A stretch of DNA of 64,000 bases, taken from NCBI GenBank assembly GCA_001442925.1, contig LDXX01000005.1, positions 294,995 to 358,994 on the forward strand, given 5' to 3'. Of the stretch, positions 7,352 through 32,188 are shown one piece after another; positions within the stretch are counted from its first letter, which is position 1, and every line of letters begins with the position of its first letter. Below the pieces are notes generated by a model. That model was not told where the DNA came from. It did not search any database and saw only the letters and a program-made list of their open reading frames with translations. This DNA is from Candidatus Kryptonium thompsonii. Its GTDB lineage: Bacteria; Bacteroidota; Ignavibacteria; Kryptoniales; Kryptoniaceae. A program made the position numbers and the translations under genes.

Positions 7352-7369
7352 ATCAAATTAAGTTTTTGT

Positions 7370-12477: not shown

Positions 12478-13232
12478 ATTTTTCTCAGCTCCTTAGGTAA
12501 ATCAGATAATTTTCTAATCCAAGGCATTTTTTTAAAGGCTCTGTTTTTCAATAGTTCATCTCTAACAAATGCGATTAGCCCTTTCTGATTTATTTCGTTA
12601 GCTTTGCTTTCTGGCAAATTTTCATCTATTGTTATAAGGTAGATTCTTTGATTTGGTCGAGCTTGCGGAACTTCTTGTTTCCATCTTTCTCTCAATGTTC
12701 GTTTACAAGTTAAAAATATTGCTCTATCGGGAGTTTTAGTAGCAATCTCCACAGATGGTATTACTATATCAATCCGTCTTAACTCCTCTCTTGCTTTTCC
12801 TTTTGGGATTTCACATTTAATATCTATAAAATTTAAGAGTTTTAAAAGCACTTTTTCAAAAGTTTTACCGCCCCTTGCCTTTCTCATGTTACCTAAAACC
12901 TTCTCAAAATTTTGAACCAAAACACCAAATTCTACAAAAATTTCACTTGCCTTTTCTATAAACCTATCCCACCCATCCTGAGCAACAATTTTCTCTAACC
13001 TTTCCTTAATCTCTTTCTTTTGTAAACTTATCCAAGATTTTGCAAGTTTCTCTAAAGCCTTTCTCTCATAGTTTCTGAATATCTCTGTTGCCTTTTCATC
13101 AAACATTACCAATACTTTTCCAAAATTATTTCTTACAAAAGATTTATTTAACCCCAGATCATCCCATGTCTCGTTGAGAATACGGTTAACAGATGGAATT
13201 TCACTTTTTGCTGTTTCAATGAGCTTTTCCAT
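12474..13232 (-). CDS. Type II restriction endonuclease, PD-(D/E)XK-like
   Basis: 252-aa protein encoded directly upstream of, and translationally coupled to, a DNA methyltransferase. The C-terminal half has a plausible nuclease core: E126 in GKTFEKVL, D155 in RRIDIVIP and K177 in LTCKRTLRERWKQ. The last motif resembles the K-x-TLRxRW segment of several Type II enzymes. The N-terminal half is helical, charged and unrecognised. ATG at 13232 is preferred; a TTG one codon upstream is also possible. Assignment rests mainly on the pairing with the methylase plus the core motif. Confidence 0.8.
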   Translation of the reverse strand: MEKLIETAKSEIPSVNRILNETWDDLGLNKSFVRNNFGKVLVMFDEKATEIFRNYERKALEKLAKSWISLQKKEIKERLEKIVAQDGWDRFIEKASEIFVEFGVLVQNFEKVLGNMRKARGGKTFEKVLLKLLNFIDIKCEIPKGKAREELRRIDIVIPSVEIATKTPDRAIFLTCKRTLRERWKQEVPQARPNQRIYLITIDENLPESKANEINQKGLIAFVRDELLKNRAFKKMPWIRKLSDLPKELRKI

Positions 13233-13320
13233 CAAAAATTTTTTCTCCTGTTCACTTACTTTTTATCGTTTGTTAACATCATTTTAACGAAAAACAAGCA
13301 AAAAATCAATTGGTTTTAGT

Positions 13321-15629: not shown

Positions 15630-17105
15630 TTATTCGCTTTTCATTGCCACTTGTTTTGTTGAAACTGCATATATAAGAATGTTGGAGAAAAGCTGTAATT
15701 GTGTAGTATTATCAATTGAAGGGTTATCAAACTTGCTTAAGATTCGCATATAACCTTTATTTGAGAAAACAACGATTATTCTCTTTTGCCAAAAGAGAGC
15801 CTCAAGATAGTTGTATTTTTCTTCCCTTTCAAATTCTTTTACTTCGACTATATCATCAGCTCCAAGGGGGAGTTCCTTTATTTTCGCCCAGATTGAATAA
15901 ACCGGGTGAGAAAGAAAAATTTTCTCGATATAGCTCCCCTCAAATTTTGCTTTTATTTTATCAAGCAAATCCCTTGCACCAATGTTAAATTGACTCGATT
16001 TTGAATGATTTAGATCATCAATTAAAATTATGCCCCCATTTCTTATACATGCGGCGAAGTTATCGACCGCAACAGGGGAAAACTGAGGTTTCACCACCCC
16101 ACCGCTCACAACGACAAGATCTGATTTAGCAACGCTCGGCGACTCAGCCCTTCCACTCTCAAGCGTAACCTTTAACCCCTCTTTTTTATTCAGAAATTCA
16201 ACAAGATTTTTTAATCCAAGTTCAACTATTTCTTCGCCATCTCCCCCGTACTTAACTTGGAAAATTTTTATTTCCCTATCTTTTATCGTTTTTAAGTCAA
16301 CCCCATCCCCACCTGCGGCGATAACCTTAGTTGCCTCTGTAACTCTTCGAATTACAGGAACCCGTTTAAAGTAAAAGTTAATATCTATGAAATCGCTCGG
16401 CACGTTATTTTCATCATATCCAACTATGAAATTTTTCAAGACAACCTTTATTCGTTCAACTCCTTCTGACAATGGATCAAAGACAACTAACCCCTCCCTG
16501 CTGTCACCTTTATACAAAGGTCTCCCATAAGTTAACATCGTTCTTCTCGCTATTCCCATCCTCGCTTCAAAAACATCTTCATCAATTCCCGTCGATCCCT
16601 TCCTCGCACGGTAATATTCCTCCAAGCTATGAAACTTACTTGTCTTTGCTTCAAGCCCATAGGCAATAAATCTATCACCCCGGTCACTTAACAAAATCGC
16701 ATTTTCTGGATCAAAATTTATTTTGGGTGCAGCGTAGTTATATATTGAAACCTTAAAGACAGTAAATCGATTCGGCGTATAACCTAGCTCAGGATCAACC
16801 CAATCGCCATAAGTGTAGGGATTCGTAGAGTAAATTCCACCCTTGGATTCTTCGGGAAACTCAAAATTGTTAAGCTGATAATCGCTCATATATTTAATTT
16901 CAACTTTAAAAGTGCCTTTATCGAAGACGATGGTCATCGAATCTTTGCCAATGTAGTAGCTCGTATCCCCTGCCGTTTTCATCATCTCTATATCGGGAAC
17001 GATCTCATATTCAATTTTTTGCGGAGGGAAAAAGAGGAAACGATAAACATTATCACAACCGTTTAAGATGAGAAACAATAAAAAGAGAGGAAGAATCTTT
17101 TTCAT
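15630..17105 (-). CDS. DUF4159 domain lipoprotein
   Basis: 491-aa predicted lipoprotein. From the ATG at 17105 the sequence is MKKILPLF, a hydrophobic stretch and lipobox LNGC, which an earlier in-frame start would bury. The middle half is a beta-rich region with no recognised domain. The C-terminal 200 residues are a DUF4159 (GATase/ThuA-like) domain: GGIILIDD, HPVYSIWAKI, YNYLEALFWQKRIIVVFSNKGY and DNTTQLQLFSNILIYA. The same landmarks occur in the TonB-like protein at 18006-19262, so the two are paralogous at their C-termini. It is the last gene of the ExbBD cluster. Molecular role unknown. Confidence 0.82.
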   Translation of the reverse strand: MKKILPLFLLFLILNGCDNVYRFLFFPPQKIEYEIVPDIEMMKTAGDTSYYIGKDSMTIVFDKGTFKVEIKYMSDYQLNNFEFPEESKGGIYSTNPYTYGDWVDPELGYTPNRFTVFKVSIYNYAAPKINFDPENAILLSDRGDRFIAYGLEAKTSKFHSLEEYYRARKGSTGIDEDVFEARMGIARRTMLTYGRPLYKGDSREGLVVFDPLSEGVERIKVVLKNFIVGYDENNVPSDFIDINFYFKRVPVIRRVTEATKVIAAGGDGVDLKTIKDREIKIFQVKYGGDGEEIVELGLKNLVEFLNKKEGLKVTLESGRAESPSVAKSDLVVVSGGVVKPQFSPVAVDNFAACIRNGGIILIDDLNHSKSSQFNIGARDLLDKIKAKFEGSYIEKIFLSHPVYSIWAKIKELPLGADDIVEVKEFEREEKYNYLEALFWQKRIIVVFSNKGYMRILSKFDNPSIDNTTQLQLFSNILIYAVSTKQVAMKSE

Positions 17106-17118
17106 CTCGTGAGCAAAT

Positions 17119-17961
17119 TTATTTTTCACTGACAAATTCAAATCTAAAATCAATCGATTTAACTTTTTCATTGTCCTTATAAATGTTTACCTCCGGCAAA
17201 ATGAAGAGCAACCATCGGACCTTTTCAGCTGGCTTCCTGAAAACAACTAATCCCTTTCTAACAACACCAGGATATATTTTTTCATCACGAAGTAAAATAT
17301 CCTTCAAAAATTTTTTGTTCAATTCAGCTCTCCTTTGGCTCGACAGCAAATACCCTGCGAGAAATGGATCATAAATGGTGTATGGATTTATATATCTCAT
17401 CGGATATGGAATTGATTCAGTTTGAATTATATCATCAACCTCAAGAGCTCGAAACTGATTTCGCTTATCGTCCAACAAAACACTGGCGGATGGCTTTATT
17501 TCTACTTTATCAGAGCGCAAATTCTCAATGGCGACGCTTAAAACAATGTAAGGAATTTTTCCAAAATCATCTTCAAATGGGCTTGGGATATTTTGTGGTG
17601 CTATTTGATTTCCGAACACATCGTAATAGTTTCCATATTCTTGGAGATGAATGTATTCATTATATGCTGAAAGAATTTCGGAGTTATCCTCTTGGGCATA
17701 ATTTATGTATTCATCCTTCAAAATTTTCTCAAAATCCTTTTTATCATATCTCTTGCCCGCAGCTATTTTTCTTATCTCAGCTGGGGTAAGAAACTTGACA
17801 CTTACTTTGATGCTATCTTTTATAACCGTTGCAAGCGTCTCAGCCACATTATAGTTGCTTACTTCGTATGGTTTAACCTGCTCGTCATAATTTTCACTCA
17901 AGAAATAGGCGCATCCCCATAAAAACAGACCAAATGCAAAGGATAAAAATTTAAACTTCAT
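17119..17961 (-). CDS. Hypothetical lipoprotein of the ExbBD/DUF4159 cluster
   Basis: 280-aa protein starting at the ATG at 17961, with a short hydrophobic leader ending in lipobox LWGC, so probably membrane-anchored and periplasmic. I recognise no domain. Its later half (VLSVAIENLRSDKVEIKPSA, LLDDKRNQFRALE, GVVRKGLVVFRKP) resembles the middle region of the next gene, which has ENAILLSDRGDRFIAYGLE and SREGLVVFDPL, so the two share a homologous beta-rich module. It sits 14 bp upstream of the DUF4159 lipoprotein and 44 bp downstream of the TonB-like gene. Confidence 0.7.
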   Translation of the reverse strand: MKFKFLSFAFGLFLWGCAYFLSENYDEQVKPYEVSNYNVAETLATVIKDSIKVSVKFLTPAEIRKIAAGKRYDKKDFEKILKDEYINYAQEDNSEILSAYNEYIHLQEYGNYYDVFGNQIAPQNIPSPFEDDFGKIPYIVLSVAIENLRSDKVEIKPSASVLLDDKRNQFRALEVDDIIQTESIPYPMRYINPYTIYDPFLAGYLLSSQRRAELNKKFLKDILLRDEKIYPGVVRKGLVVFRKPAEKVRWLLFILPEVNIYKDNEKVKSIDFRFEFVSEK

Positions 17962-18005
17962 TTTAAATCGCCTCCACAAAAAAGAATTTTTAAGTTTTTA
18001 AATGC

Positions 18006-19262
18006 TTATTGTTGCATCACAACTTTCTCTTTATTCTTTGCAACAATGCCACCAGGTTGATTCATTGCGAAGATAAGTATATTCAAACCCATTTGCAACT
18101 GTCTCGTGTTATCAAGCGGTGGAGTTGAATATGGCCAATCTCCCCACGCTTGGGTATAGCCGCGATTTGAAAGGACCACCGCAAGTCTCCCACCAAGCCA
18201 AATTCCCTCAAGATAGTTGTAAATTTCACGAGCTGGTCTTCTTGAATCAACCCTTGCAAGATCATCACCAGCCGGCGGACCATCAAAATCTTTCCAAATG
18301 TGATAAATTGGATGACTGTTAGGAATCCTCTCCCACACGGCATCATAGCCAAGGGCATCTTGGATCAACTGTTTTACAGATCTGGTAAATGGTCCATAAG
18401 CAGATGCAAGCCCATCATCAATGAATAAGAAACCACCGGAGCGAAGATATTTAGCTAAGTTCTCGACCTCGTTTTTTGTGTAAATCACTTCACCATCATA
18501 GCCCATCATTATAAGAATTGGAACATCCATAATATTTTTTGAATCGAGACGAATTGAACCCATGAGATTAAGTTGAAGGTTAGGCAGAACCTCCATAGCG
18601 TATCTTTGAAGATTCTGTAAAGCAGATGGTCTATAATTCCACATTGGTTCACCATTTGGAGCTGATTTACTGCTCCTATATTGCACTTGATAGACATTTA
18701 AAAATCCTCTCCAATCCTCTTTACTTCTGCCACGCTCAAGCCAACCCTCAAATCTGTCCATGAAGTTCGTATAACTTATCAACTCTTCCTGTAAACTTTT
18801 TATCGTTCTTCCAGAATGTCTGGTGTCCATTATATCATAGTTTAAACTTGGTCCCGTTAACATAGCAGGAGGACTGTAGGTTCTTTCCACATATTCCCCT
18901 GGTCTGGCAAGCGAGGCAAGAGCTGTCCCTCCATGGACAGTGGCAGTTGTCATAGAACGAGCAGACATTCGAGGTTTTTGAGGAGACACAAATCTTTGAA
19001 TAACGCGTTCAACTATTGTCGGCATCTTCCTGAACTCAATACTTTTCGTCAAACGCGGCGGTTTTTGAATAAACTTTACAGTCGTCGGCGGTCGCTTAAT
19101 CTCTTTCTTTTCTGGAAGCTTCATATTTAAAATTACAGGAATGCTATGGATAAAAAATGCAACAATTAAAAATTTTAACAACGCCTTACGATTTTCATAT
19201 ATAAACCGCGCTATCTTGTCACTGAGTTCAACTCCAGGTATTTTGTAGTTCGTCTCTCGCAT
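18006..19262 (-). CDS. TonB-like energy transducer with a C-terminal DUF4159 domain
   Basis: 418-aa inner-membrane protein. A short cytoplasmic N-terminus is followed by one transmembrane helix (about 27-46) containing AFFIH, with H39 in the place of the His of the TonB/TolA SxxxH motif. Next comes a basic, Pro-containing stretch (LPEKKEIKRPP, FIQKPPRLTK) like the TonB linker. Residues about 185-402 are DUF4159: DVPILIMMGYDGEV, GGFLFIDDG, HPIYHIWKDF, YNYLEGIWLGGRLAVVLSNRGY and DNTRQLQMGLNILIFAM. The gene follows exbB and exbD with 6-bp spacing, exactly where tonB or tolA would be expected. No TonB C-terminal domain is present. Coupling to ExbBD is inference from architecture and order. Confidence 0.82.
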   Translation of the reverse strand: MRETNYKIPGVELSDKIARFIYENRKALLKFLIVAFFIHSIPVILNMKLPEKKEIKRPPTTVKFIQKPPRLTKSIEFRKMPTIVERVIQRFVSPQKPRMSARSMTTATVHGGTALASLARPGEYVERTYSPPAMLTGPSLNYDIMDTRHSGRTIKSLQEELISYTNFMDRFEGWLERGRSKEDWRGFLNVYQVQYRSSKSAPNGEPMWNYRPSALQNLQRYAMEVLPNLQLNLMGSIRLDSKNIMDVPILIMMGYDGEVIYTKNEVENLAKYLRSGGFLFIDDGLASAYGPFTRSVKQLIQDALGYDAVWERIPNSHPIYHIWKDFDGPPAGDDLARVDSRRPAREIYNYLEGIWLGGRLAVVLSNRGYTQAWGDWPYSTPPLDNTRQLQMGLNILIFAMNQPGGIVAKNKEKVVMQQ

Positions 19263-19268
19263 TTTAAA

Positions 19269-19691
19269 TCATTTAACTTGGATTTCCTCTTCTTCTTTCT
19301 CCGTGGCTATTGCAAGTTGATCAATTCCACATAACTTTGCAATGTCCATAACTTTCACAACTATACCATGTAGCGTCTTTTTATCAGCTTTGATTATCAA
19401 AACCTTGCTTCCAAATATCTCTTTATCCTTGAGCATCTCCTCCTGCAAGTTGTCGAATGTAACTCTCCTTCCATTTAAATCCATCTCTCCATTTGAAGAG
19501 ATAACTATCGTTAAATCCTTCTCCGGCGGAGCATCAGAAGATGCCGCGGTTGGAAGGTCAACTTTTAAACCACTTTGAACAGCAAACACAGTTGTCACCA
19601 TGAAAAATATCAAAAGCTGGAAAACACAATCAATCATCGGTGTTAAGTTAATATCAACTGAATAATCACTATTTTTGCTTTTTTTCTTCAT
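19269..19691 (-). CDS. exbD: ExbD/TolR family biopolymer transport protein
   Basis: 140-aa inner-membrane protein with one N-terminal transmembrane helix in INLTPMIDCVFQLLIFFMV. D21 is the conserved protonatable aspartate of ExbD/TolR/MotB-type stators. A periplasmic domain of about 90 residues follows. It lies 10 bp after the ExbB gene and 6 bp before the TonB-like DUF4159 gene, forming a complete proton-channel and transducer set. Confidence 0.93.
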   Translation of the reverse strand: MKKKSKNSDYSVDINLTPMIDCVFQLLIFFMVTTVFAVQSGLKVDLPTAASSDAPPEKDLTIVISSNGEMDLNGRRVTFDNLQEEMLKDKEIFGSKVLIIKADKKTLHGIVVKVMDIAKLCGIDQLAIATEKEEEEIQVK

Positions 19692-19701
19692 TTCTGGTTC
19701 A

Positions 19702-20565
19702 TCATTCTTTTTTAACCTTTAAACTTTTAATAACCTCATCCTCAATAGCCCGCGCTTCCTCATCCGAAATATCAAGTTCGATTCTTTTACGCCTCAGATA
19801 TTCGCCTCCTTCCTCAGTTAAACTTCCATTTCTGTAAACGCTTGCAACGATCGCCCTATAAGACTCTATTCTACCATGTTCATGAAGCAATGTATTGACG
19901 AAATGATTTTCAAATGGCTCAAGATGTTTAGTGATTTTTTCAGCCCTTCTTCTCAAAAAGCTATATCCAAGAACAGATGGTATCGCAACAGTTAAACCAG
20001 CAGCCGTGGTTAAAAGTGCAACCGATATCCCATGGGCTACAACAGCTGGATCTCCACGTCCACCTTTTGCAAGTTCATCAAAAGACATTATCATTCCAAT
20101 AATAGTCCCGAAAAGTCCAAGCAATGTTGCAACATTTGCAATTGTAGCAACTATTGGCAAAAACTCTTCAAGATAATCACTCGTCGAATCAACCGCAGTA
20201 TCCATCAACTCCTGTCGCATATCGTTTATAGAGCGATTCTCTTGGAGTAAAAACTCGTATCTTTTCAAAACCGATAGAAACACAAATGAAAGTGCATTTT
20301 TTTTGTTCTCAAAATATTTAACAACCGGTTCAATCTTTTTGTTTGTCCTTAAAATCTCCTCAACTTCTTCCAGCATTTGTGCTATTTTTTTATCCTTCGG
20401 GATTTTTAGATATCTGTAAATTCGTTCAATAATTATTCCCATTGAAATTACAGAAAAGATAAAAAGCGGGACCATAATGTATGGTCCACCCTTTATAATT
20501 ATGTCAACAAGCCAGTTATCCCAAAGCCAGGACCACCACGATTTCTGCTGAATTAAAAGAATCAT
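19702..20565 (-). CDS. exbB: MotA/TolQ/ExbB proton channel family protein
   Basis: 287-aa multi-pass inner-membrane protein, longer than typical ExbB. The family core is in the last two thirds: LLGLFGTIIGMIMSFDELAKGG followed by HGISVALLTTAAGLTVAIPSV. An N-terminal helix (GGPYIMVPLFIFSVISMG) and a cytoplasmic loop precede it, and a charged C-terminal tail of about 60 residues extends it. ATG at 20565 is preferred to an in-frame TTG at 20580. It forms the stator with the adjacent ExbD and would use the proton gradient to drive the TonB-like protein. Confidence 0.92.
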   Translation of the reverse strand: MILLIQQKSWWSWLWDNWLVDIIIKGGPYIMVPLFIFSVISMGIIIERIYRYLKIPKDKKIAQMLEEVEEILRTNKKIEPVVKYFENKKNALSFVFLSVLKRYEFLLQENRSINDMRQELMDTAVDSTSDYLEEFLPIVATIANVATLLGLFGTIIGMIMSFDELAKGGRGDPAVVAHGISVALLTTAAGLTVAIPSVLGYSFLRRRAEKITKHLEPFENHFVNTLLHEHGRIESYRAIVASVYRNGSLTEEGGEYLRRKRIELDISDEEARAIEDEVIKSLKVKKE

Positions 20566-20589
20566 AAAATCATCGCCCAATTTTGTTTT

Positions 20590-23500
20590 TCAAAAATTAA
20601 AGTTGCTCTTTATCCATTCAAGATGTTCCCTTGCGAAAATAACAGCAGCCCGAGCATTATCATCGCTTGAATTTTCATAATCTCGGATTATTTCTTGATA
20701 CATCTTCGCCGCCGTTCTCCAATCTCCAAGTTGCTCATAAGCAGCCGCTATATTAACCCGACACCCAACGACGATATCAGAATCTGGATATTTCTGCCAT
20801 ATCTTCGTCAACTCTTCAATCGCCCGACGATAATCCTTGTTGTCAAAATATCTCATCGCCTCTTGATACTCAGCATAAACATTTATAAGTTTTAAATCTT
20901 TAATAAGTTGCCTTGCCTCACCTACTTTTTCATGCTCGGGATACAACATCACAAACTCCTCATATGCCTGTTGAGCCTTCTGATAGTCTTTCAAGTTATA
21001 ATAATAATCCCCGATCGTAAAAAGAGCGATCGGGGCATATTCACTTTTAGGATAGCGTTTTGCAAGTTGTTTAAAAGATTCAACCATTTGCTCGGGTTTT
21101 TGAAGCTCATAATAGCACCAACCTTCGCTGTAAAGAGCCATTGGAGCAAGCTCATCGTTTGGGAACATCCTATAAACATTGCTATACTCACGAATTGCCT
21201 CCTCATATTTGCCCATGTTATAGTAAGATTCACCAATGTTAAAATAAGCCTCAGGGGTTAACTCATCCTTTGGAAACTCTTTAACAAACCTTCTAAAATA
21301 CATTGCTGACTTGTCCCAGTATCCAAGTCTAAAATACGAATAGGAAAGGAAGAAAAGAGCATCTTTATAGTTTTGTGAATTTGGGAAAAGTTTTAAGAAT
21401 CTATCAAAAATCTCAATCGCATTTTCATACTCGCCCTTATCGTAGTAAACTGCCCCAGTTGAGAAGAAGGCATCTTGGATAAATTTTGAATTAGGAAACT
21501 TTTCAGCAGCCTTCGAAAGAATACTCAGCGCCTTATTGAATTCACCGAGTTCCCTATGTGAATTAGCAAGCACATAAGTTGCCTTTGAAAAAATTAACTC
21601 GTCCGAAACATCGCTTTGAAAAACATCATTTGCAAATCTTATCGCATTTTTATAATCTTTCGCTTCAAAATATGCTTCAGCAAGCACAGCGGTGTATCTA
21701 ATCTTTTCTGTAAACTCAACCGTTTCACCGACCAACTTTGAAATAAAACTTATCCCCTTCTCAATCTGACCAATTTTAATGTACGAAATCGCCAACTTCT
21801 CGTTTACCTGGGGAATAAGTTGAGAAAGATCAGCTATAAATCTCTTGTTCGAGATGCAATTTTCAAAATCAGTTGTTGCTTCCTTATATCGTTCGAGTTG
21901 ATAGTAAAGCGAGCCACGAGCATAAATTGATTGAAGTTTAAGTATCTCGTTAGCCTTCGGGTCATCTATGACAAGTGTTAACTCATCAATAGCATCCTTG
22001 TATTTCCCCTGTCCAATGTAGATATCCGCAAGCGAGAAATGAACTTCAGGAATGAAATAGATGCTGTCTTTTAAAGATTCAGCGGTTCTAAAAATATCCT
22101 TGATAAATTTTTCTCCCTCGGCAAATTTGTTTTGTAAACTAAATGATTTTGATACCTTTATAAAAGCAGGCAAGTAAAAACTTGAACCAGGTGTAATTTT
22201 AGCGAAAATATCCAATAGGCTATCATATCTTTGGGTATCAAAATAGGTCAAAAGGATATAGTAATAAACCTCATCCTTGTTTAAACCAGCTGGGTTCTCA
22301 GCAAGTATTTCATTAAATTCACTTAAAGCGTTTTCATATCGTTTCCACTCATAATATGTTCTCCCAAGTTGAACACATGCTGGCGCATATTGTGGAGAAT
22401 TTTTGTATTGTGTCTTTATAACAACAAATGAACTCTCCGCCGATGCATACTCTCCCACTGCAAGATGCGAAATCCCCTTGAAAAAGAGCATATCTGGGAT
22501 GTAATTAGAACCTGGAAATTTTATCAAGAAAGAATCACACTCTGAGATTGTTTCTCTATATTTTTTTGCATTGTAAAGACATATAATTTTTGAATAAGTT
22601 GCATCTTCAACAGGAAAATCAATTAAGAACGCAACTTCACCATATGCTTTAATATAAAGGTCATATTCACTTGCTGCCCTATCATAGCGAAGCGAGTCTT
22701 GATATGTCTTCGCAATTAAATATTGCATTTTTGCCTGCAATTGCTTATTCTCAAAGCTTCTATCAATTGCCTCCCTATAAATTGAAATTCCAGCTTCAAG
22801 CCCTTTCTTCTCAAGCGTATATTGAGCCATTTTTATATATGCGGTTTCAATTAAGCTTGGCAAAAGAGTGTATGTTGCTATAACATTTCGGTATGATTTT
22901 ATCGCCTCATCAAAGTTATCCATCATTTTATAGCAATCAGCAATCCTTAAATTTGATTTTGCAACAATTTCAAGCGGAGTTTCTTCCCCTTCTCGTCCAG
23001 TTATAGCTTCAAAAACTTTTCTTTCCCTTACAGCTTTCAACTCGATTTTTTCAAATTCTTCCCTTTTAAAACTCTCAGGTTTAAATTTATCAACGATATC
23101 TTTGAACCAATTTAACGCTATATCGAAGTTTCCCTTGTCATAATAATTTTGACCAATCTGATACATAGAATGTGGCACAAGCTCACCTTTGGGAAATTTT
23201 TCAACCAACGCCTTAAAGTAGAAAATTGAACTGTCAAGCATTTTTAATTCTCTAAATGCCCAACCAATCGTATAATATGCCTTCGGAACACGCTCGTCAT
23301 TTGGAAATCTATCAATTAATTTCTTTGACTCCGCTATTGCTTCCTCAAGTTTACCTTCCGAGTAGTAAATATCAGCAATTTGGTATTGGGCGAGAGCTGA
23401 AAGCCAAGGTGAATCATTCCTTTTCTCAGAAACAACTCTAAAGCTTTCTATCGCTTCAGCGTTATTCTTCAACTTCCTTAAAGCATTCCCCTTTTGATAA

Positions 23501-23745
23501 TAAGCTGCTGTTTTCACACTAACTATCAAATCACCGTTGAAAAGCGCAACTTTTACGCTGTCCTCATTTAAGAATTTACTTTCGGTATTTATAATGAAAT
23601 CATATTGCTTTATCGCTTTTTTAAAGTCACCGCTTGCATAAAAATTTTGTCCTGAGTTAAAGGCTTTCTGGAGCTCAAGCGGTGTCGGAATGAAGTTTGC
23701 AATTATAGATGCGGTTAATGTAACGATGATAATTATCTTCCACAT
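20590..23745 (-). CDS. Large periplasmic tetratricopeptide-repeat protein
   Basis: 1051-aa protein built almost entirely of TPR units after a short signal-like N-terminus (IIIIVTLTASIIANF). Repeats such as YYDKGEYENAIEIFDRFLKL, YFRLGYWDKSAMYFRRFVKE and YYNMGKYEEAIREYSNVYRM recur at about 34-36 residue spacing. The protein is probably a long superhelical scaffold in the periplasm. A strong ribosome site, GGAGGTGA, lies just upstream of the ATG at 23745. The neighbours are a large outer-membrane barrel (upstream) and ExbB (downstream). Small TPR proteins accompany Tol and gliding motors (CpoB, AglT), but this one is several times larger. Role unknown. Confidence 0.85.
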   Translation of the reverse strand: MWKIIIIVTLTASIIANFIPTPLELQKAFNSGQNFYASGDFKKAIKQYDFIINTESKFLNEDSVKVALFNGDLIVSVKTAAYYQKGNALRKLKNNAEAIESFRVVSEKRNDSPWLSALAQYQIADIYYSEGKLEEAIAESKKLIDRFPNDERVPKAYYTIGWAFRELKMLDSSIFYFKALVEKFPKGELVPHSMYQIGQNYYDKGNFDIALNWFKDIVDKFKPESFKREEFEKIELKAVRERKVFEAITGREGEETPLEIVAKSNLRIADCYKMMDNFDEAIKSYRNVIATYTLLPSLIETAYIKMAQYTLEKKGLEAGISIYREAIDRSFENKQLQAKMQYLIAKTYQDSLRYDRAASEYDLYIKAYGEVAFLIDFPVEDATYSKIICLYNAKKYRETISECDSFLIKFPGSNYIPDMLFFKGISHLAVGEYASAESSFVVIKTQYKNSPQYAPACVQLGRTYYEWKRYENALSEFNEILAENPAGLNKDEVYYYILLTYFDTQRYDSLLDIFAKITPGSSFYLPAFIKVSKSFSLQNKFAEGEKFIKDIFRTAESLKDSIYFIPEVHFSLADIYIGQGKYKDAIDELTLVIDDPKANEILKLQSIYARGSLYYQLERYKEATTDFENCISNKRFIADLSQLIPQVNEKLAISYIKIGQIEKGISFISKLVGETVEFTEKIRYTAVLAEAYFEAKDYKNAIRFANDVFQSDVSDELIFSKATYVLANSHRELGEFNKALSILSKAAEKFPNSKFIQDAFFSTGAVYYDKGEYENAIEIFDRFLKLFPNSQNYKDALFFLSYSYFRLGYWDKSAMYFRRFVKEFPKDELTPEAYFNIGESYYNMGKYEEAIREYSNVYRMFPNDELAPMALYSEGWCYYELQKPEQMVESFKQLAKRYPKSEYAPIALFTIGDYYYNLKDYQKAQQAYEEFVMLYPEHEKVGEARQLIKDLKLINVYAEYQEAMRYFDNKDYRRAIEELTKIWQKYPDSDIVVGCRVNIAAAYEQLGDWRTAAKMYQEIIRDYENSSDDNARAAVIFAREHLEWIKSNFNF

Positions 23746-23762
23746 GCTGACTCACCTCCATA

Positions 23763-26741
23763 TTAAAAACCTGCTATGACAGTGAAAAATATAGCCGACT
23801 CATCACGACTATATCTTTCCTCTCCAGGCTTTACAAATTTTCTCTTTGTAAATTTATAGCCGAAATCAACAACGATTGAATAACCTTTATACGAGCTTTG
23901 ATTCGTCAGCGAAAAAGCAATTGTGCCTCTATTTTCACTGCCCGTTCCATCTTTTAAGTTCCTTATCCGATACGAAAATATATCTGGCAACCCTATAATG
24001 CTCAAACCTTGAAGTCCAAAGTTAAAAACAGAGCGATCAGTCAACTTATACCCAACTCTGAAAATCGGTATCATCTCCTGTGTGTGTTGAATTATATCAG
24101 GAACTTTTCTTAACTCTCCACCAACATTAACATATCCAAGCCTTACCTCTTTGACTGTCCTAACTTTAAATTGGGGTTTTACATCAAGACGACCATTAAG
24201 GAATCTAAACGTATAATCAATTTTATTAACTAAACCCCACAGCGTTATCCTTCCCTCAAGCTGATCACCAGTATATTTTGCCTCAGGGAGCAAAGCTTTT
24301 GCTGGATCGCCAAGTGGGCGCTGAAAATTAAGCTCAAAACGAACTTTGTTTTCAATATTAAGATTTGGTATCTGTGTATATCTTGCTTCAAAATAAAGAT
24401 TATGGACAAAACTATTTCTATACCTCAATAGATCCTCCGTAAAGACTGGGAAAGGACTCGTTATCGTTATCACACCTTTATACTGATAAACTGGATTTGG
24501 AACTTCATCCCTAACTCTCTTCATCACATAATACAAAAGGATTGAACCAAGCCGAGGGTTTGTCGCAGTATAAAATGTTTTAAGATAGAAAACTCGGTTA
24601 ATTCCACCCCTTGCGATAGCTCTTTCATTTATAAAGCCAACTTGAGAGTTCCAATTTCTCGTTAGACTTATCTTTGTAAAGGCATGATAACCATTTATGT
24701 CTGGCTCATAAGGATAATCGGGGTATATATCATTTTCTTGTTCATCAATTATACCATTATTGTTCCAGTCATCACCATAATCAAAGGTTGGCGGATCACT
24801 GTAATATGTTAAGAAATCTTCTTGGTAATCGGGGATACCGTTAGCGTTTTGGTCATCGTCAGGTATCCCATCGTTGTTTCTATCTTTCCCAGGAAATATA
24901 CCCGCATCAGGTCTTCTTATTATGCTTGTTAAACCGATCAATTCATTTGCATTTTGTCTGTAGCCAAGCAAAAATGGATCAGGTGTAGGATTTAATACAT
25001 CGGTATTCTCAAATGTCGGGTTTGGTGTTGCATTGTAAAAATAAAATCCATCTTCCCATCTATCTCTATCGTCATTATCATCAACAAGTGAAAAATAAGC
25101 TCCGCCTGGAATAAAAGAGATTGAGCTCGAAACATCGTAAGCTGTTACACCATAAACATCAGGCGCAAGGTAAGAATAACCCGAACCAGTCCACAGCATG
25201 TAGTAACTGTTCTCAAGTGAATAAACATTAAGGGAAGTTGTATAATTCGGTTCAATTTTATATCGTTCAAATCCAAAGGTTAAACGTCCAACCTTTTTGG
25301 AAGCTTTGATATAAAATGCGTTCCCTTTTTGTGTAAACCAAGGACCACGCCCCACAGGATATTTTGACCACTCCAAACTTTGAGCAAACTCGCCTTCTAT
25401 ATTAAACCCCTTCCAATTGAACTTGAGGTTTAAACTATATACACTCATTCCTGTCGTTAAAGCGTAATTAAACATCACTATTTGTCTATTCGATGCATCT
25501 TTAACATTTCCCTCCGCTCTTTTTATAAGTCTGAAAAATGTCGGCGTTCCAACGGCGATTGAATCATAGTGTGGAATAAACCGCGCACCCGTAGTTTGCT
25601 CCCAATCATCAAGACGGTTAACAAAATCATGTGCTGCTTCAATCTTAAAATCATTTGCAACGACAAGTTCAAATTCAACAGATTCAACTTTGGGTGGAAT
25701 TATATAAGCAAATGTTATATTTCCATCGCTTGGAATTTGCTCCGGATAAACTGGCAAAGCTGATAGCCTCGATCTGAATTTATATCCCGGACCTCCTTGA
25801 ATTGGTGTATAAGCGGTATAACTTAATGTATCAGCTCCAGCAACCCAAAGCGTTCTATCTATGCTGAAGTTTCTGAAGACATAATATTGAATTGGCGCAC
25901 CAAGAACAGTTTCCTGCGGAGATGGAACTTTACCATTTATATTTTTGGTTGAAACTCTCACACCGTTAATCTTAACAACCGGCTCTGAATAAATTATTGG
26001 ACCTGAGCCATCCCTAGGGGAATCATCACTTATTCTGACAAAAATGATCCTCGGAACACCGTTTGGCGGAACCCCTTTGAACGGAACATCTCGAGCGTTA
26101 ACATCCATTCGCCTTGTGTGTTGATTTACATAAGTTGCACCGATCGTCAAAACATCACCAATATCTGTTTCAAAATGACCTCCGAAAAGATATTGAGCCC
26201 AGTTTCGTGTCCTTTGAATGCCATCTATCAAAAGCGGTGAATCAAACCTAAATCTAACAGGATCACTAACTCTTGAAAAAACAACCGTACCTCTATGTTT
26301 TGTTGTAGCCCCGTCCCATCTAACACCATTAAACCTTGCCTTATCAAATGTAAGCGATGTGAATTTCGTTCTTATGGCATCTCCAATTATCAATCTTGTT
26401 TGAAAATCCCCATAATTATCACTGGCGATCACAAGATTTTGAAAATATTGATAATAAAACCTTGACTTCGTCAAGCTGCTGAACCCACCCAACTCTTGCC
26501 CTACAAGCTGCCTCTGATTTTCAAGCAACTCAAAAATTAAACTTCCATCTATGAGAAAATTCCCAAAGTTATCATAAAACCTCTTTCTCAAAAACGATAT
26601 ACTGTAGTTTTCATAATTTCTCCCCGAGTAATTAAGATAACCTTCTTTATCCCTTGCTATAAATTGAGCATTTAAAGTTTCAATTCCGATTGTTAAAACC
26701 ACAAAAAACAGGATAAACACTCTCATAGCAATTAGAATCAT
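23763..26741 (-). CDS. Large outer-membrane beta-barrel-like surface protein
   Basis: 992-aa exported protein: signal peptide (RVFILFFVVLTIGIETLNAQ), then long alternating beta-strand sequence, ending in AIFFTVIAGF with a terminal Phe typical of outer-membrane barrels. Around residues 555-675 is an Asp/Asn-rich region (DDNDDRDRWEDG, DRNNDGIPDDDQNANGIPD, DDWNNNGIIDEQEND) resembling calcium-binding thrombospondin type 3 loops. I do not recognise a named family; it is much shorter than the T9SS translocon SprA. ATG at 26741 is used, and ATG at 26726 is possible. It is followed by the TPR protein and ExbBD, so it may be the outer-membrane target of that machine. Confidence 0.72.
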   Translation of the reverse strand: MILIAMRVFILFFVVLTIGIETLNAQFIARDKEGYLNYSGRNYENYSISFLRKRFYDNFGNFLIDGSLIFELLENQRQLVGQELGGFSSLTKSRFYYQYFQNLVIASDNYGDFQTRLIIGDAIRTKFTSLTFDKARFNGVRWDGATTKHRGTVVFSRVSDPVRFRFDSPLLIDGIQRTRNWAQYLFGGHFETDIGDVLTIGATYVNQHTRRMDVNARDVPFKGVPPNGVPRIIFVRISDDSPRDGSGPIIYSEPVVKINGVRVSTKNINGKVPSPQETVLGAPIQYYVFRNFSIDRTLWVAGADTLSYTAYTPIQGGPGYKFRSRLSALPVYPEQIPSDGNITFAYIIPPKVESVEFELVVANDFKIEAAHDFVNRLDDWEQTTGARFIPHYDSIAVGTPTFFRLIKRAEGNVKDASNRQIVMFNYALTTGMSVYSLNLKFNWKGFNIEGEFAQSLEWSKYPVGRGPWFTQKGNAFYIKASKKVGRLTFGFERYKIEPNYTTSLNVYSLENSYYMLWTGSGYSYLAPDVYGVTAYDVSSSISFIPGGAYFSLVDDNDDRDRWEDGFYFYNATPNPTFENTDVLNPTPDPFLLGYRQNANELIGLTSIIRRPDAGIFPGKDRNNDGIPDDDQNANGIPDYQEDFLTYYSDPPTFDYGDDWNNNGIIDEQENDIYPDYPYEPDINGYHAFTKISLTRNWNSQVGFINERAIARGGINRVFYLKTFYTATNPRLGSILLYYVMKRVRDEVPNPVYQYKGVITITSPFPVFTEDLLRYRNSFVHNLYFEARYTQIPNLNIENKVRFELNFQRPLGDPAKALLPEAKYTGDQLEGRITLWGLVNKIDYTFRFLNGRLDVKPQFKVRTVKEVRLGYVNVGGELRKVPDIIQHTQEMIPIFRVGYKLTDRSVFNFGLQGLSIIGLPDIFSYRIRNLKDGTGSENRGTIAFSLTNQSSYKGYSIVVDFGYKFTKRKFVKPGEERYSRDESAIFFTVIAGF

Positions 26742-26747
26742 TTTTTG

Positions 26748-27659
26748 TTAGAAATTAAACTCAATGCTGAACTTATGGCTTCCACCTGCATCAGATATCT
26801 CAAACTGATAAACATAAACATAATCAATCTTGAATTTCCAATATCTTATCCCAAATCCAGAATTCAAACTCGATTGTCTACCGCCTTCTACGATAGCTCC
26901 CCCTGAACCTCTCAAGATAAATTCAAAACGATCTTTCAAAAACTCAGAAGAAAAAGCTAAAATTTCCACTCCAATGTCAGCCTTTATATCACCCTCCGAT
27001 TTTGAAATTCCCAACCCTATCAGATAATTGTAAGAATTCGAAACATATACAACACCACCCGAAATTTCAAGTGGCAACTTTGCATCATTCGACTTATTCA
27101 CTGCTATGCTTGGTTGTGTTATATTCTTTAGTACCATCCCAAATCTCAAATCAGAACCATTGATAAAATCCCGCCATACAAAAATAGCTCCAGCATCAAA
27201 TGTGAAATTAAAATATGAATAATTTGATTCTCCAACTGGTGCAACTGCAGACCATCTTAAAAATTTCAGATTCCCACCCACCGATAAACCTTTAAACCCA
27301 CTTGCTACTGAAAGAACAACTTGGTTTTCACTCCACATCCCGATTTTAAAATGAGAAATTCCCACACCAAAATCGAAAATTGAAAAGCCGGGTAAGACGC
27401 CAGATAAAGTTAAGTAGTGAAGCTTTTCATCTTGAATAAAAGGATAAAGTCGTGAATATGTCGTTGCTAAACCAAATTTTTTTATTTGCGTCATTCCAGC
27501 AGGGTTATAAAACATAGCATATGGATTATTTGCAATGGCAACATAACTTAACCCAAGAGATACAGCTCGAGCCCCATTTCCAAGGTCTTTAAAGGCGCCA
27601 GCAAACCCAAAATTAAATCCAAATACAATCACAACTGTCAGAAAAGCAATTTTCTTCAT
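26748..27659 (-). CDS. PorV/PorQ family outer-membrane protein
   Basis: 303-aa exported protein with a signal peptide (MKKIAFLTVVIVFGFNFGFAG) and the PorV/PorQ/UPF0164 opening GNGARAVSLGLSYVAIANN then FYNPAGM. The rest is beta-strand rich and ends in SIEFNF, a barrel-type terminus. PorV is the shuttle of the type IX secretion system that carries cargo to the attachment complex, but many paralogues exist and this may be a dedicated one. It sits between an FlgD-type secreted protein and the 992-aa barrel, with a 6-bp gap to the latter. Confidence 0.8.
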   Translation of the reverse strand: MKKIAFLTVVIVFGFNFGFAGAFKDLGNGARAVSLGLSYVAIANNPYAMFYNPAGMTQIKKFGLATTYSRLYPFIQDEKLHYLTLSGVLPGFSIFDFGVGISHFKIGMWSENQVVLSVASGFKGLSVGGNLKFLRWSAVAPVGESNYSYFNFTFDAGAIFVWRDFINGSDLRFGMVLKNITQPSIAVNKSNDAKLPLEISGGVVYVSNSYNYLIGLGISKSEGDIKADIGVEILAFSSEFLKDRFEFILRGSGGAIVEGGRQSSLNSGFGIRYWKFKIDYVYVYQFEISDAGGSHKFSIEFNF

Positions 27660-27678
27660 TAGAATGAAAAATTATTTT

Positions 27679-29337
27679 TCAATAAACAACAGTTATAGTT
27701 TTAAAAATTGACTCAGCCCCAGCGTCAGCATTTATCATAACCCTCAAAAGGTAAACACCAGGTCTGACAAGCTTCCCATTATCATCCCTACCATCCCATA
27801 AAAACGAATTAGAAGAAATATAAGCAAATGCTTTACTTGGACCATCAAAAACTGTTTTGATAAGCTTACCTGTCAAATCAAAAATTTGAATTTTTAAATT
27901 TCTCTCAATGTTAAGATTGGAAAGGAAAAAACTTATTTGAGTTTGGTCGTTTAACCCATCTCCATTTGGAGAAAACGGGTTCGGATTTACTTGCAAGTCA
28001 ACTATTAACTTTTCAGAAACCCCAGTTGTTAAAACAGTCCAACTGCTCAAATCTCCCCTTTTATACACATTAACAAACTGTGGATTTAAAGGTGTGATTT
28101 TGCTTATAGCAACTGTTGGAAACTCATTGACATCAAGATAAAGTGTTAAACTTAGCTTAACAGTTATCCGTGAATTCGAATTTATCGACTGATTAAAAGC
28201 TACCTTGATATATTCAGGGGTTGATACCAGTGAATAGGCAACTGGAGCTCCATTGAGTAAAACAGATTCAACATTAGCTGGGGATGGCGTAAATATCAAC
28301 AAAGTATCAATACCAAGCGAATTTTCATCAACTTCAATATTAAAATCGCAAGATATCTCGGTTCGCTTTAAAATTGGAACAACAGGTGGATTGACTTCAA
28401 AAGCGATGTTTCGAGCAACGAGTTTTTTATCATAGAATATCGTAAGCTTTTTCAAAACTGGCGTCTCCGTGCTTGATGTGGATAAATTTGCCTTAAATTG
28501 AATATAACGCCTTGGCTCATCAACTTTTAAAATCTCGGTTTGAGAAATCTCTGGTGACCACTGACTCCATGCACCATTAATCCCTGGCGTAGCCCCCGTA
28601 CGAAATTGAAAAGTTACATTGGTACCCTCGGGCAACTCAGCATCCCATTCAGCCCAACCCCAGTTCACCGTTTGACCCACATCAATGACCTTAGAGTAAT
28701 ACTCTCCATATGATAAATATCCAACACCATAGATCTCTATCTCACATACAACGGTCGAGCTAAACCTATCAATAACATCAAAAACGATCTTTACAAATCG
28801 TGCAATAATAGGGTCAAAAATATCAATCGTTTTTACATCAAGATTATCCGTTTTTTGCAAAACCCTCGTCAATTGAATCGAATCAGTCCCTGCGTAAATT
28901 GTATAAGCCCTTGGTCTAAGGGATTGATTTAGACCAAAAGTTACAATCACAACTTTGTTGATTTTTCTAAGTGCGAGTAAATCAATGAGAATATAACTTC
29001 CATCACCCCCGGGCCTAATCTGGCAAAATGTCCTGGTATCCCCATCAATTACTTTCATTGGATTTCCTGTAACGGTATCTCGGTCCCCTGTTTGGGTTTT
29101 GGGCTCACCGGTTCCGTAGTAAGTTATTGTCGCCCTTCTATTCTTGGCAAGATTTTCCTGTTCGCTTGTTTTCAAAATCAAATAACCTGACGAATTACCA
29201 ACATTAACCCCCTGGCTAAGTGTTGTGTCAATAAAAGTAGCAAAATTTGAAATAACTATGGTATCTGGGGGAGTCTGAGATTTAGCACTGACAATAGAAA
29301 TGATTAGCAGAGCGAACAAAAGTTTCAATCTGTGCAT
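27679..29337 (-). CDS. Secreted surface protein with discoidin-like domain and FlgD-like C-terminal module
   Basis: 552-aa exported protein. After a signal peptide (LLFALLIISIVSAKSQ), residues about 60-205 look like a discoidin/F5-8C galactose-binding domain (KVIDGDTRTFCQIRP, YILIDLLALRKINKVVI, ARFVKIVFD, EIEIYG). A second beta region follows. The last 90 residues are a gliding-motility/FlgD-like module: NPNPFSPNGDGLND, KIQIFDLTGKLIKTV, WDGRDDNGKLVRPGVYLLRV. Such modules are anchored by or exported through type IX secretion. It is the first gene of the nine-gene run and could be the cargo or surface tip. Confidence 0.8.
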   Translation of the reverse strand: MHRLKLLFALLIISIVSAKSQTPPDTIVISNFATFIDTTLSQGVNVGNSSGYLILKTSEQENLAKNRRATITYYGTGEPKTQTGDRDTVTGNPMKVIDGDTRTFCQIRPGGDGSYILIDLLALRKINKVVIVTFGLNQSLRPRAYTIYAGTDSIQLTRVLQKTDNLDVKTIDIFDPIIARFVKIVFDVIDRFSSTVVCEIEIYGVGYLSYGEYYSKVIDVGQTVNWGWAEWDAELPEGTNVTFQFRTGATPGINGAWSQWSPEISQTEILKVDEPRRYIQFKANLSTSSTETPVLKKLTIFYDKKLVARNIAFEVNPPVVPILKRTEISCDFNIEVDENSLGIDTLLIFTPSPANVESVLLNGAPVAYSLVSTPEYIKVAFNQSINSNSRITVKLSLTLYLDVNEFPTVAISKITPLNPQFVNVYKRGDLSSWTVLTTGVSEKLIVDLQVNPNPFSPNGDGLNDQTQISFFLSNLNIERNLKIQIFDLTGKLIKTVFDGPSKAFAYISSNSFLWDGRDDNGKLVRPGVYLLRVMINADAGAESIFKTITVVY

Positions 29338-30288: not shown

Positions 30289-30314
30289 GCAAAATTAAAT
30301 ATGCGTTTATCAAT
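30289..30314. repeat. 26-bp repeat at the pabBC stop codon (pairs with 35494-35519)
   Basis: Matches 35494-35519 at 24 of 26 positions. It begins GCAAAATTAA and ends TTTATCAAT. In both places it sits immediately downstream of, and overlapping, the stop codon of a minus-strand gene. A 14-bp part (ATGCGTTTATCAAT) recurs inverted at 32341-32354. Confidence 0.7.
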
Positions 30315-32188
30315 CACATCGGAAGATGTAGCTCACATTTTCTCATCCCTCTTATCGCATTGCATATAAAAATTTCGTCCGCATTAAGCAAGTCATCTAA
30401 ATACAAAATTTCTTCCAAAGCATCTTTATTTGTTTCAAGAATATATTGCCGATAAACTCCGTTTAACAAACCACATTCAACAGGCGGTGTAAGGAGCTTA
30501 GCACCTTTTCTTATAAAAACATTACTAATTGCGCCTTCTGTAATTTGGTTTTTCTCATTCATGAAAATAATGTCAGCATAACCCTCGCTTAAAGCCTTTT
30601 TATATAGTTTATCGTAAATTTCTCTTTTTGTCGTCTTATGATAAAGAAATATATCATTAGAATTTGTCTTAACATCAGAAATTGTAATAATTAGCTTTTC
30701 ATTTTGATTCTCGTCCACGGGAAACTTTTCAATTTTTATTTCGCCAAATAGGTTTAAACTTACTCTAATTTTATACTTCCTTCCCCTTTCAAGACAGGCT
30801 TCAAATTCTCTTAACATCTCGACTAATTTGTTTAAGTCAAATTGAAAATCAAAATATTTTGCTGAGCTTGACATTCTTTTTATATGCTTTCCGAGTAATC
30901 TATATTCTTCATCCCACAAAATTGATTCAATTATTTCAAAAGTTTCAAGCGGTTCGGTTAAGAATTTTGCTTTCAATTGGCATTCTTTGTATTCGCTTTC
31001 TGGGTCAGAATCATAAACTATTCCGCTTCCGCTACCCATTTCGCCATGATTTCCCCTAATCACAATTGTTCTGATTGGAACATTAAACACCGCTTCTCTA
31101 AAAGCGCCTTTTGGAGCAAAATACCCGATCGCACCAGTATAAACACCCCTTGGTTCCAGCTCGAGCTCGCTGATTATTTCCATGGTTCTAATTTTAGGCG
31201 CACCAGTCACAGAACCGCTTGGAAAAATTGCCTCAAAAATTTCATAATATGTTAAATTATCCCGAAGCTCGCCTTCAATTGTTGAAGTCATCTGAAATAA
31301 AGTTTGGTATTTTTCAACTTCAAAAAGTTTGTTAACTTTTACACTTCCAATTTTTGAGATTTTGCCAAGATCATTTCTTAACAAGTCAACAATCATTAAA
31401 TTTTCGGCTCTATTTTTCTCATCGTTTCTTAACCATTCACTCAACTTATTGTCCTCATCAAGAGTTTTTCCCCTTTTAACGGTTCCTTTCATTGGTTTTG
31501 TTATAATTTTATCACCCTTTATTCTAAAAAATAATTCTGGGGCAAATGATAAAATAGATATTTCATCGGTTTGTATAAGTGCGCCGTACGGGACTTTTTG
31601 TTTTTCTCTCAAAAATTTATATAGCGAAATTATAGAACCTTTTTCAGATGGATCTTTTGAAACAAAGTTAAAAATAAATTTTCCAGTAAAGTTAACCTGA
31701 TATGTATCACCGGAAATTATATACTTTTTGATAGACTTAATTTTCTCAAAATAAATTTCTTCCGGGATATTAAATTTTATGTCAGTAATTTCAAGATTCG
31801 AATTGTTAATTTCCTGATGGCTTTCAATGAAATACTCATTTTCAATTTGCATAAGTCTATGGTCAAAAACAACAACTTTATCATACACACCCAACCAAGC
31901 CAATGGATAATCTAAGGCTTTTGCTAAGTATGGTTTTTGAATAAAATGATACCCACATTCATACGCAAAGTATCCAGCGATATAAAATGATTTTTTAAGG
32001 TAGGTTTCTATATCTTCGAAAAGCTTTGGAATTTCATGGATTGAATTAGCTGTTAAAATTTTAACGGGTTGAACGAATAAAAATGATTTAAAATTTTCAG
32101 GGTCACATTTTATAGTTTCAAGAAGGACAAAATTGGTTTCTTTTGCTAAATTATTTAAATATTTTTCAGGAAGTTTTGAGTATAACAA
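30314..32188 (-). CDS. pabBC: Aminodeoxychorismate synthase component I fused to aminodeoxychorismate lyase
   Basis: 624-aa fusion for 4-aminobenzoate (folate) synthesis. The first 370 residues are the chorismate-binding domain: YIISGDTYQVNFT, KPMKGTVKRG near 230, and IFPSGSVTGAPKIRTMEII. The remainder is a class IV PLP enzyme: HIKRMSSSAKYFDF, KYKIRVSLN with the likely PLP lysine, and GAISNVFIRKG with LLTPPVECGLLNGVYR. The open frame has no ATG before the conserved N-terminus; TTG at 32188 is taken as the start, with an in-frame stop nine codons upstream. The gene is bracketed by 28-bp direct repeats. The PabA glutaminase is not nearby. Confidence 0.9.
   Translation of the reverse strand: MLYSKLPEKYLNNLAKETNFVLLETIKCDPENFKSFLFVQPVKILTANSIHEIPKLFEDIETYLKKSFYIAGYFAYECGYHFIQKPYLAKALDYPLAWLGVYDKVVVFDHRLMQIENEYFIESHQEINNSNLEITDIKFNIPEEIYFEKIKSIKKYIISGDTYQVNFTGKFIFNFVSKDPSEKGSIISLYKFLREKQKVPYGALIQTDEISILSFAPELFFRIKGDKIITKPMKGTVKRGKTLDEDNKLSEWLRNDEKNRAENLMIVDLLRNDLGKISKIGSVKVNKLFEVEKYQTLFQMTSTIEGELRDNLTYYEIFEAIFPSGSVTGAPKIRTMEIISELELEPRGVYTGAIGYFAPKGAFREAVFNVPIRTIVIRGNHGEMGSGSGIVYDSDPESEYKECQLKAKFLTEPLETFEIIESILWDEEYRLLGKHIKRMSSSAKYFDFQFDLNKLVEMLREFEACLERGRKYKIRVSLNLFGEIKIEKFPVDENQNEKLIITISDVKTNSNDIFLYHKTTKREIYDKLYKKALSEGYADIIFMNEKNQITEGAISNVFIRKGAKLLTPPVECGLLNGVYRQYILETNKDALEEILYLDDLLNADEIFICNAIRGMRKCELHLPM

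Follow-up and report, generated by a model that had tools for sequence, protein, structure and literature searches.

A conserved gene block joining an ExbBD motor and a DUF4159 transducer to a large predicted outer-membrane barrel in Candidatus Kryptonium thompsonii

We analysed a window of 64,000 nucleotides from Candidatus Kryptonium thompsonii (assembly GCA_001442925.1, contig LDXX01000005.1, positions 294,995 to 358,994 of the forward strand), in which nine neighbouring genes encode a set of proteins that appears to span the cell envelope and is kept together in several phyla. The nine open reading frames (ORFs) all lie on the minus strand, span positions 15630-29337 of the window with intergenic gaps of 6-26 nt, and follow one another in the direction of transcription as F58, POR, BAR, TPR, ExbB, ExbD, DUFa, LP and DUFb (Table 1). 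A preliminary description, made from the sequence alone, had reported nine genes on one strand with short gaps, including an ExbB and an ExbD; the ORFs agree with it in number, strand, spacing, coordinates and lengths, and the Pfam matches bear out the two motor proteins.

Table 1. Genes and sites of the block (window positions)
Feature	Position	Strand	Basis
F58: 552-aa secreted surface-type protein	27679..29337	-	Pfam F5_F8_type_C 40.9 bits and CHU_C tail
CHU_C-like C-terminal domain of F58, residues 452-535	27733..27984	-	Pfam
POR: PorV/PorQ-like outer-membrane protein, 303 aa	26748..27659	-	NCBIfam NF033709
BAR: predicted outer-membrane beta-barrel, 992 aa	23763..26741	-	Structure model, 173 homologues
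BAR conserved acidic region, residues about 554-682	24696..25082	-	Alignments A1, A2
TPR: 1051 aa, TPR repeats, N-terminal signal-like sequence	20590..23745	-	Pfam TPR models
ExbB-like proton-channel subunit	19702..20580	-	PF01618 104.7 bits
ExbB Ser43, first transmembrane helix; column co-varies with transducer His	20452..20454	-	Alignment
ExbD-like subunit	19269..19691	-	PF02472 108.9 bits
ExbD transmembrane Asp21, channel aspartate by homology	19629..19631	-	Aligned column
DUFa: TonB/TolA-like transducer, transmembrane helix, disordered linker and DUF4159 head	18006..19262	-	Pfam, model
DUFa S/A-X3-His motif, Ala35...His39	19146..19160	-	Alignment
LP: lipoprotein-like protein, 286 aa	17119..17979	-	LP-domain profile
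DUFb: lipoprotein, LP domain and DUF4159 domain	15630..17171	-	DUF4159 31.1 bits, LP-domain profile

Several of the other domain calls could be refined. Two DUF4159 proteins and two lipoproteins had been proposed; both DUF4159 calls stand (77.6 bits in DUFa, and a lower score in DUFb that still passes the cut-off of 25.9), but the two pairs have a member in common, since DUFb is also a lipoprotein. The other lipoprotein, LP, shares the LP domain of DUFb (171.2 bits with a profile built from the block proteins), and Pfam gives it just a sub-threshold Arrestin_N match. The listed reading frames of LP and DUFb overlap by 53 nt, the sole overlap in the block; judging from the sequence, DUFb probably starts at an internal Met23 (about 17105), just ahead of a lipobox-like LNGC, in which case the overlap probably disappears. 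The FlgD-like C-terminus ascribed to F58 did not survive, as FlgD_ig scores 23.6 bits (cut-off 27) and the tail instead fits CHU_C, a type IX signal, at 29.7 bits (cut-off 27); TIGR04131, at 27.4, stays under its cut-off of 35. Both CHU_C and the F5/8 type C domain match 12 of 13 F58 homologues at E<=0.001. POR does resemble PorV, as had been suggested, but at 62.7 bits (E 4e-17) it remains below the NF033709 cut-off of 90. TPR matches the PorW/SprE model NF052312 at 143.4 bits, below the cut-off of 250 and as expected of any TPR protein.

A homologue search with BAR found 173 proteins, 120 of them listed, and we aligned 32 (A1) and 116 (A2, which omits P0031, P0112, P0117 and P0118) of these 120. 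The structure model, with a predicted local distance difference test (pLDDT) score of 87.3 and a predicted template-modelling score (pTM) of 0.86, has many long strands and predicts a barrel. BAR matched no Pfam family at E<=1, plug and TonB-dependent receptor included, and no NCBIfam model, and a PDB sequence search gave a best E not below 0.26. The Foldseek matches at the top were SlpA, the Mtr complex and LptD, with low TM-scores; the best, SlpA of Deinococcus (7zgx, E 5.2e-9), reached a TM-score of only 0.21-0.22. The SlpA-type family PF21620 was unmatched in BAR itself and scored 37.7, 36.3 and 35 bits (cut-off 35) in three of six homologues, over about 70-97 residues. Likewise, the SprA family TIGR04189 was unmatched in BAR at E<=0.1, and hhalign windows of the two did no better than shuffled controls. 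In both alignments the most conserved stretch is the acidic region of Table 1, where invariant Asp, Asn and Gly columns of D-x-D-x-D-G type cluster; on this pattern we predict that the region binds Ca2+.

The transducer had been called TonB-like, and DUFa does carry the corresponding motif, yet it is neither TonB nor TolA: the TonB C-terminal domain was not found in it, and DUF4159 is its sole Pfam family at E<=1. The structure model places a helix at residues 11-44 and a low-confidence stretch at 87-152, followed by a head that matches 4i66, so that the DUF4159 head is predicted to have a ThuA/GATase-like fold. In an alignment of DUFa with 60 of its 108 homologues and the proteins of 11 loci (A3), the transmembrane histidine is present in 68 of the 72 sequences, and the residue four positions before it is Ser in 51, Ala in 16 and Gly in 4 of 71. 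A motif of this S-X3-His type in the transmembrane helix is the contact of TonB with ExbB and of TolA with TolQ (PMC12215075). Across the loci described below, the ExbB serine and the transducer histidine co-vary 20:3:0, a count that leaves out L002, the window's own gene, and L043, in which ExbB is cut. A search of CC-licensed PMC papers, preprints excluded, returned nothing on DUF4159, alone or with ExbD. At a KSB1 locus (L050, 17396-19972) two TM-type DUF4159 transducers, that is, proteins with a transmembrane helix, occur in succession, both with the histidine.

The genome itself holds four MotA/ExbB loci, namely the block, an ExbB-ExbD-TonB_C set, a flagellar MotA-MotB pair and an ExbB-ExbD-ExbD set; with three others present, the ExbBD of the block is a separate motor set. 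The genome's own TonB_C-type transducer is without the transmembrane histidine, and its ExbB is without the matching serine (L131, G000:C4:112000-127000, 6221-8013). The ExbB-ExbD-ExbD set (L133, G000:C3:106000-121000, 6310-8043) has Colicin_V and YqeY genes close by; none of the scanned neighbours could be recognised as a transducer, and the set resembles the three-gene motor found inside the block of other Ignavibacteria.

To follow the block across genomes we took 76 loci, which correspond to the best 80 hits among 505 relatives found by a genome scan with the barrel. Neighbours were assigned to classes with profiles built for the block proteins, with score floors for TPR and F58, and only genes on the barrel strand were counted. 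By record title, the loci come from Kryptonia, Ignavibacteria, KSB1, Zixibacteria, Marinimicrobia, Latescibacterota and Gemmatimonadota, with further titles of Bacteroidetes, Neomarinimicrobiota, Handelsmanbacteria and one Bryobacterales; BAR is 88-94% identical to its counterparts in loci titled Candidatus Chrysopegis, Kryptonia and Thermokryptus. An upstream F58 was present in 56 of 56 loci with at least 3.5 kb of upstream sequence, and POR in 31 of them. Downstream sequence of at least 6.5 kb was available at 44 loci, of which 33 had TPR, 34 a TM-type DUF4159 protein, 34 an LP-domain lipoprotein, and 38 at least one downstream partner. We hand-tallied these 44 from the locus rows as two groups. 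TPR, TM-type DUF4159 and LP were each present in 25 of 25 loci of the first (L016-L057; Kryptonia, Ignavibacteria, KSB1, Zixibacteria and Marinimicrobia), with ExbB in 18 and ExbD in 19; the 19 loci of the second (L058-L091; Latescibacterota, Gemmatimonadota and similar) had TPR in 8, TM-type DUF4159 in 9, LP in 9, and ExbB and ExbD in 1 each. ExbB-ExbD follows TPR in Kryptonia, KSB1, Zixibacteria, Marinimicrobia and some Ignavibacteria, and other loci have ExbB-ExbD-ExbD upstream of F58 or behind DUFa. Because it is conserved in other phyla, the nine-gene set is more than a chance grouping, and the dedicated, ExbBD-containing trans-envelope set of the preliminary description is indeed kept together across phyla.

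Two further features of these loci were apparent. Two to four tandem barrel paralogues are often present in the Latescibacterota and Gemmatimonadota loci (L058-L084; for example L066 and L072), and the block is followed, in a Zixibacteria locus (L054, 17132-18997) and a Marinimicrobia locus (L055, 17818-19635), by a gene for a glycoside-hydrolase-like protein of the GHL10 type that carries a Por secretion tail.

Closer to home, BAR was found in 11 of 61 related genomes, its own included, and in 4 of the 296 genomes of the phylum, these being its own genome and three of its class. The DUFa profile gave a full-length match in the same 11 of the 61, matched by its DUF4159 part alone in 49, and gave none in 1, so that a DUF4159 match of some kind occurs in 60. 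Outside the block, the genome (G000:C4:83238-83843) and relatives also encode DUF4159 as a separate protein, about 245 aa long. Over 20 sets, protein distances of BAR correlated with those of TPR, POR, F58 and DUFa at r 0.90-0.94, against 0.42 for ExbB and 0.32 for ExbD.

The block shares with Ton and Tol an ExbB/ExbD-type motor and a transducer with one transmembrane helix, a Ser-X3-His motif, a linker and a globular head. The head here is DUF4159, whereas theirs is TonB_C or TolA-C; BAR, in contrast to the barrels of Ton, has no recognised plug; and the block adds TPR, LP-domain lipoproteins, and PorV-like and type IX-tailed proteins. One might suppose that the block serves energised uptake, with BAR as a gated importer of a polymer captured by F58 and DUFa in the role of TonB. 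The ExbBD motor with its TonB-type motif, the F5/8 type C domain of F58, which is of a ligand-binding type, and the GHL10 genes behind the block would fit such a function, but we consider it quite unlikely: Pfam finds neither a plug or TonB-dependent-receptor family in BAR nor TonB_C in DUFa, the TPR and lipoprotein partners are foreign to Ton systems, and the conservation of BAR peaks in one acidic region, unlike that of a variable substrate receptor. If the block served envelope upkeep, as a Tol-like tether that keeps the outer membrane in place or reshapes it, this would accord with the DUF4159 proteins of Kryptonia and Ignavibacteria, which come as a pair of one inner-membrane protein and one lipoprotein, and with a TPR partner that recalls CpoB of Tol-Pal (PMC12204202). 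Yet a Pfam search confined to the nine proteins shows no OmpA/Pal or TolB-type domain in them, and occurrence in just 11 of 61 relatives would be odd for a basic tether; we regard this explanation as very improbable.

The likeness to type IX secretion takes in a large barrel, a PorV-like protein, a TPR protein, a proton motor and a CHU_C-tailed protein. In type IX systems the TPR protein PorW joins the motor-side ring to the translocon (PMC8754138), and the GldLM motors are of the same broad kind as ExbBD (PMC8986121). The block differs in that BAR has no significant relationship to SprA, the motor is ExbBD rather than GldLM, and TPR falls below the PorW/SprE cut-off. The block lacks a tested defining feature of each of Ton, Tol-Pal and type IX secretion. 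SprA had been described as not present, which is correct for the cluster but not for the genome, where it is encoded outside the window and apart from the block (G000:C5:205844-212194). SprA was found in 60 of the 61 relatives, with 59 over the cut-off, and likewise in all 21 cluster-bearing genomes to which the loci led. GldL (TIGR03513) exceeded its cut-off in none of the 61 and none of the 21, and was unmatched in the own genome at E<=0.001; as a positive control, the model matches 70 of the 296 genomes of the phylum. That type IX secretion possibly extends to other phyla of the Fibrobacteres-Chlorobi-Bacteroidetes (FCB) group has already been published (PMC11285876), and complete systems have been reported in Bacteroidetes only (PMC4793230). 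The Kryptonia paper counted 811 proteins with a Por C-terminal sorting domain (PMC4737851), which, together with SprA and the missing GldL, points to plentiful type IX-style cargo without the known motor.

A natural thought is that the block stands in for GldLM as the motor of the canonical SprA translocon, as the pattern of SprA with no GldL over the cut-off would invite. However, full-length DUFa and BAR occur in just 11 of 61 genomes, the block has a barrel of its own, and SprA is encoded elsewhere in the genome. Because most SprA-bearing relatives are without the block, a class-wide SprA motor is only a weak rival, and we hold it to be improbable.

The nearest described idea is the family of vWA force transducers (PMC12204202), which likewise have a transmembrane helix with an SHLS motif, a disordered linker and a non-TonB head, and are encoded alongside TPR, tolQ-like and paired tolR-like genes. 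Their head is vWA where that of the block is DUF4159, and the section of that paper on vWA proteins mentions neither a large barrel of their own nor a partner that is PorV-like or type IX-tailed; the terms DUF, ThuA, Ignavibacteria and Marinimicrobia do not occur in its main text. The Agl-Glt machinery of Myxococcus also combines an ExbB/ExbD-type motor, a transducer with a TonB motif, TPR proteins and outer-membrane proteins, and differs in that neither DUF4159 nor a 1000-aa barrel is among the rows consulted of Table 1 of its description (PMC3169522). These resemblances, and the binding of the type B cargo SprB to the PorP-like SprF (PMC9143113), favour a surface-motility or adhesion machine, in which F58, with its type IX-type tail and adjoining PorV-like gene, would act as an adhesin that POR holds and that the ExbBD-DUF4159 motor drives along the surface, after the manner of SprB-SprF with GldLM or of Agl-Glt. 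We think this unlikely, since the genome has a MotA-MotB pair and motility need not stem from the block. At 552 aa, F58 is also small for a gliding adhesin.

We tentatively favour, at a little short of an even chance, the reading that the conserved block is a proton-driven trans-envelope machine that delivers its co-encoded F58 to the PorV-like partner by way of the dedicated barrel. Given the type IX-type tail of F58 and the adjacency of the F58 and POR genes, delivery of F58 to the surface is the simplest output. The sequences directly show the gene block, its recurrence in several phyla, the transmembrane motif and the co-variation of that motif with ExbB, while the barrel and the fold of the DUF4159 head are model predictions and the working of the machine is inferred. 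On the pattern of Ton and Tol, the ExbBD channel would use the flow of protons to move DUFa; the head of DUFa, anchored in the inner membrane, would engage the DUFb and LP lipoproteins and the TPR scaffold in the periplasm; and the scaffold and outer-membrane lipoproteins would transmit the pull to BAR. This work might then open BAR or load it with F58, which POR might retain on the cell surface in the way of the PorV/PorP-type shuttles of type IX secretion; this last step is the weakest. There are precedents for the parts of such a scheme, as type B cargo use linked PorP/SprF-type shuttles (PMC9143113, PMC12618676) and a Ton system serves secretion in the case of Oar/PopC (PMC6434023).

A number of observations weigh against this delivery scheme. 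F58 could be exported by the genome's SprA, which would leave BAR another job. The motor genes are not always linked to the barrel (ExbB in 19 and ExbD in 20 of the 44 loci), and POR is missing from 25 of the 56 loci with sufficient upstream sequence. The preliminary description had named conservation of the genes together as a check, and this holds for TPR and DUF4159 throughout the first group of loci but not in the Latescibacterota and Gemmatimonadota type, where 6 of 19 barrels have no partner on their strand, nor for the motor in G058, a genome of Ignavibacteria type with no motor gene in 34 kb around the block. G058 carries ExbD genes on other contigs, and a PF02472 search of 10 genomes found ExbD genes in all. 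The transducer histidine is missing in 7 of 39 loci with TM-type DUF4159 (all within L066-L083; L002 excluded), and the Trp of the Ton/Tol contact in ExbB is Met in the window's ExbB. Finally, distances over 11 genomes correlate at 0.89 for BAR and TPR and 0.86 for BAR and DUFa, but because BAR and SprA also reach 0.80, most of the distance agreement, that over the 20 sets included, reflects shared descent.

A more specific proposal, which we rate as possible but rather doubtful, is that the block represents an undescribed export machine of the FCB group, in which ExbBD and a DUF4159 transducer drive a non-SprA translocon barrel of about 1000 residues and pass type IX-tailed cargo to a PorV-like shuttle, in cells that have SprA without GldLM. 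More generally, a proton-driven machine of the kind favoured above would bring in a further class of force transducers, in which TonB/TolA-type motor binding is combined with a ThuA/GATase-like head; the barrel family that accompanies it lies outside Pfam and NCBIfam and, going by record titles, spans at least six phyla. The near-universal SprA and the lack of GldL over the cut-off in the 61 related genomes sharpen the question of what powers their surface export, and the block is a concrete, testable candidate for that power source in part of them.

On its upstream side the block is preceded, at 112 nt and on the same strand, by a Methyltransf_4 gene, and on the opposite side a gene for a DPP IV-type peptidase converges on it. 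A scan for promoters and terminators was uninformative, with 63 promoter sites where 50.2 were expected and 12 terminator sites where 10.2 were expected. Elsewhere in the window, an EcoRII-C-type nuclease adjoins an N6_N4 DNA methylase at 11203-13235, likely a restriction-modification pair, and a single protein at 30314-32188, which we take to be PabB-PabC-like, fuses a chorismate-binding domain to a class IV aminotransferase domain.

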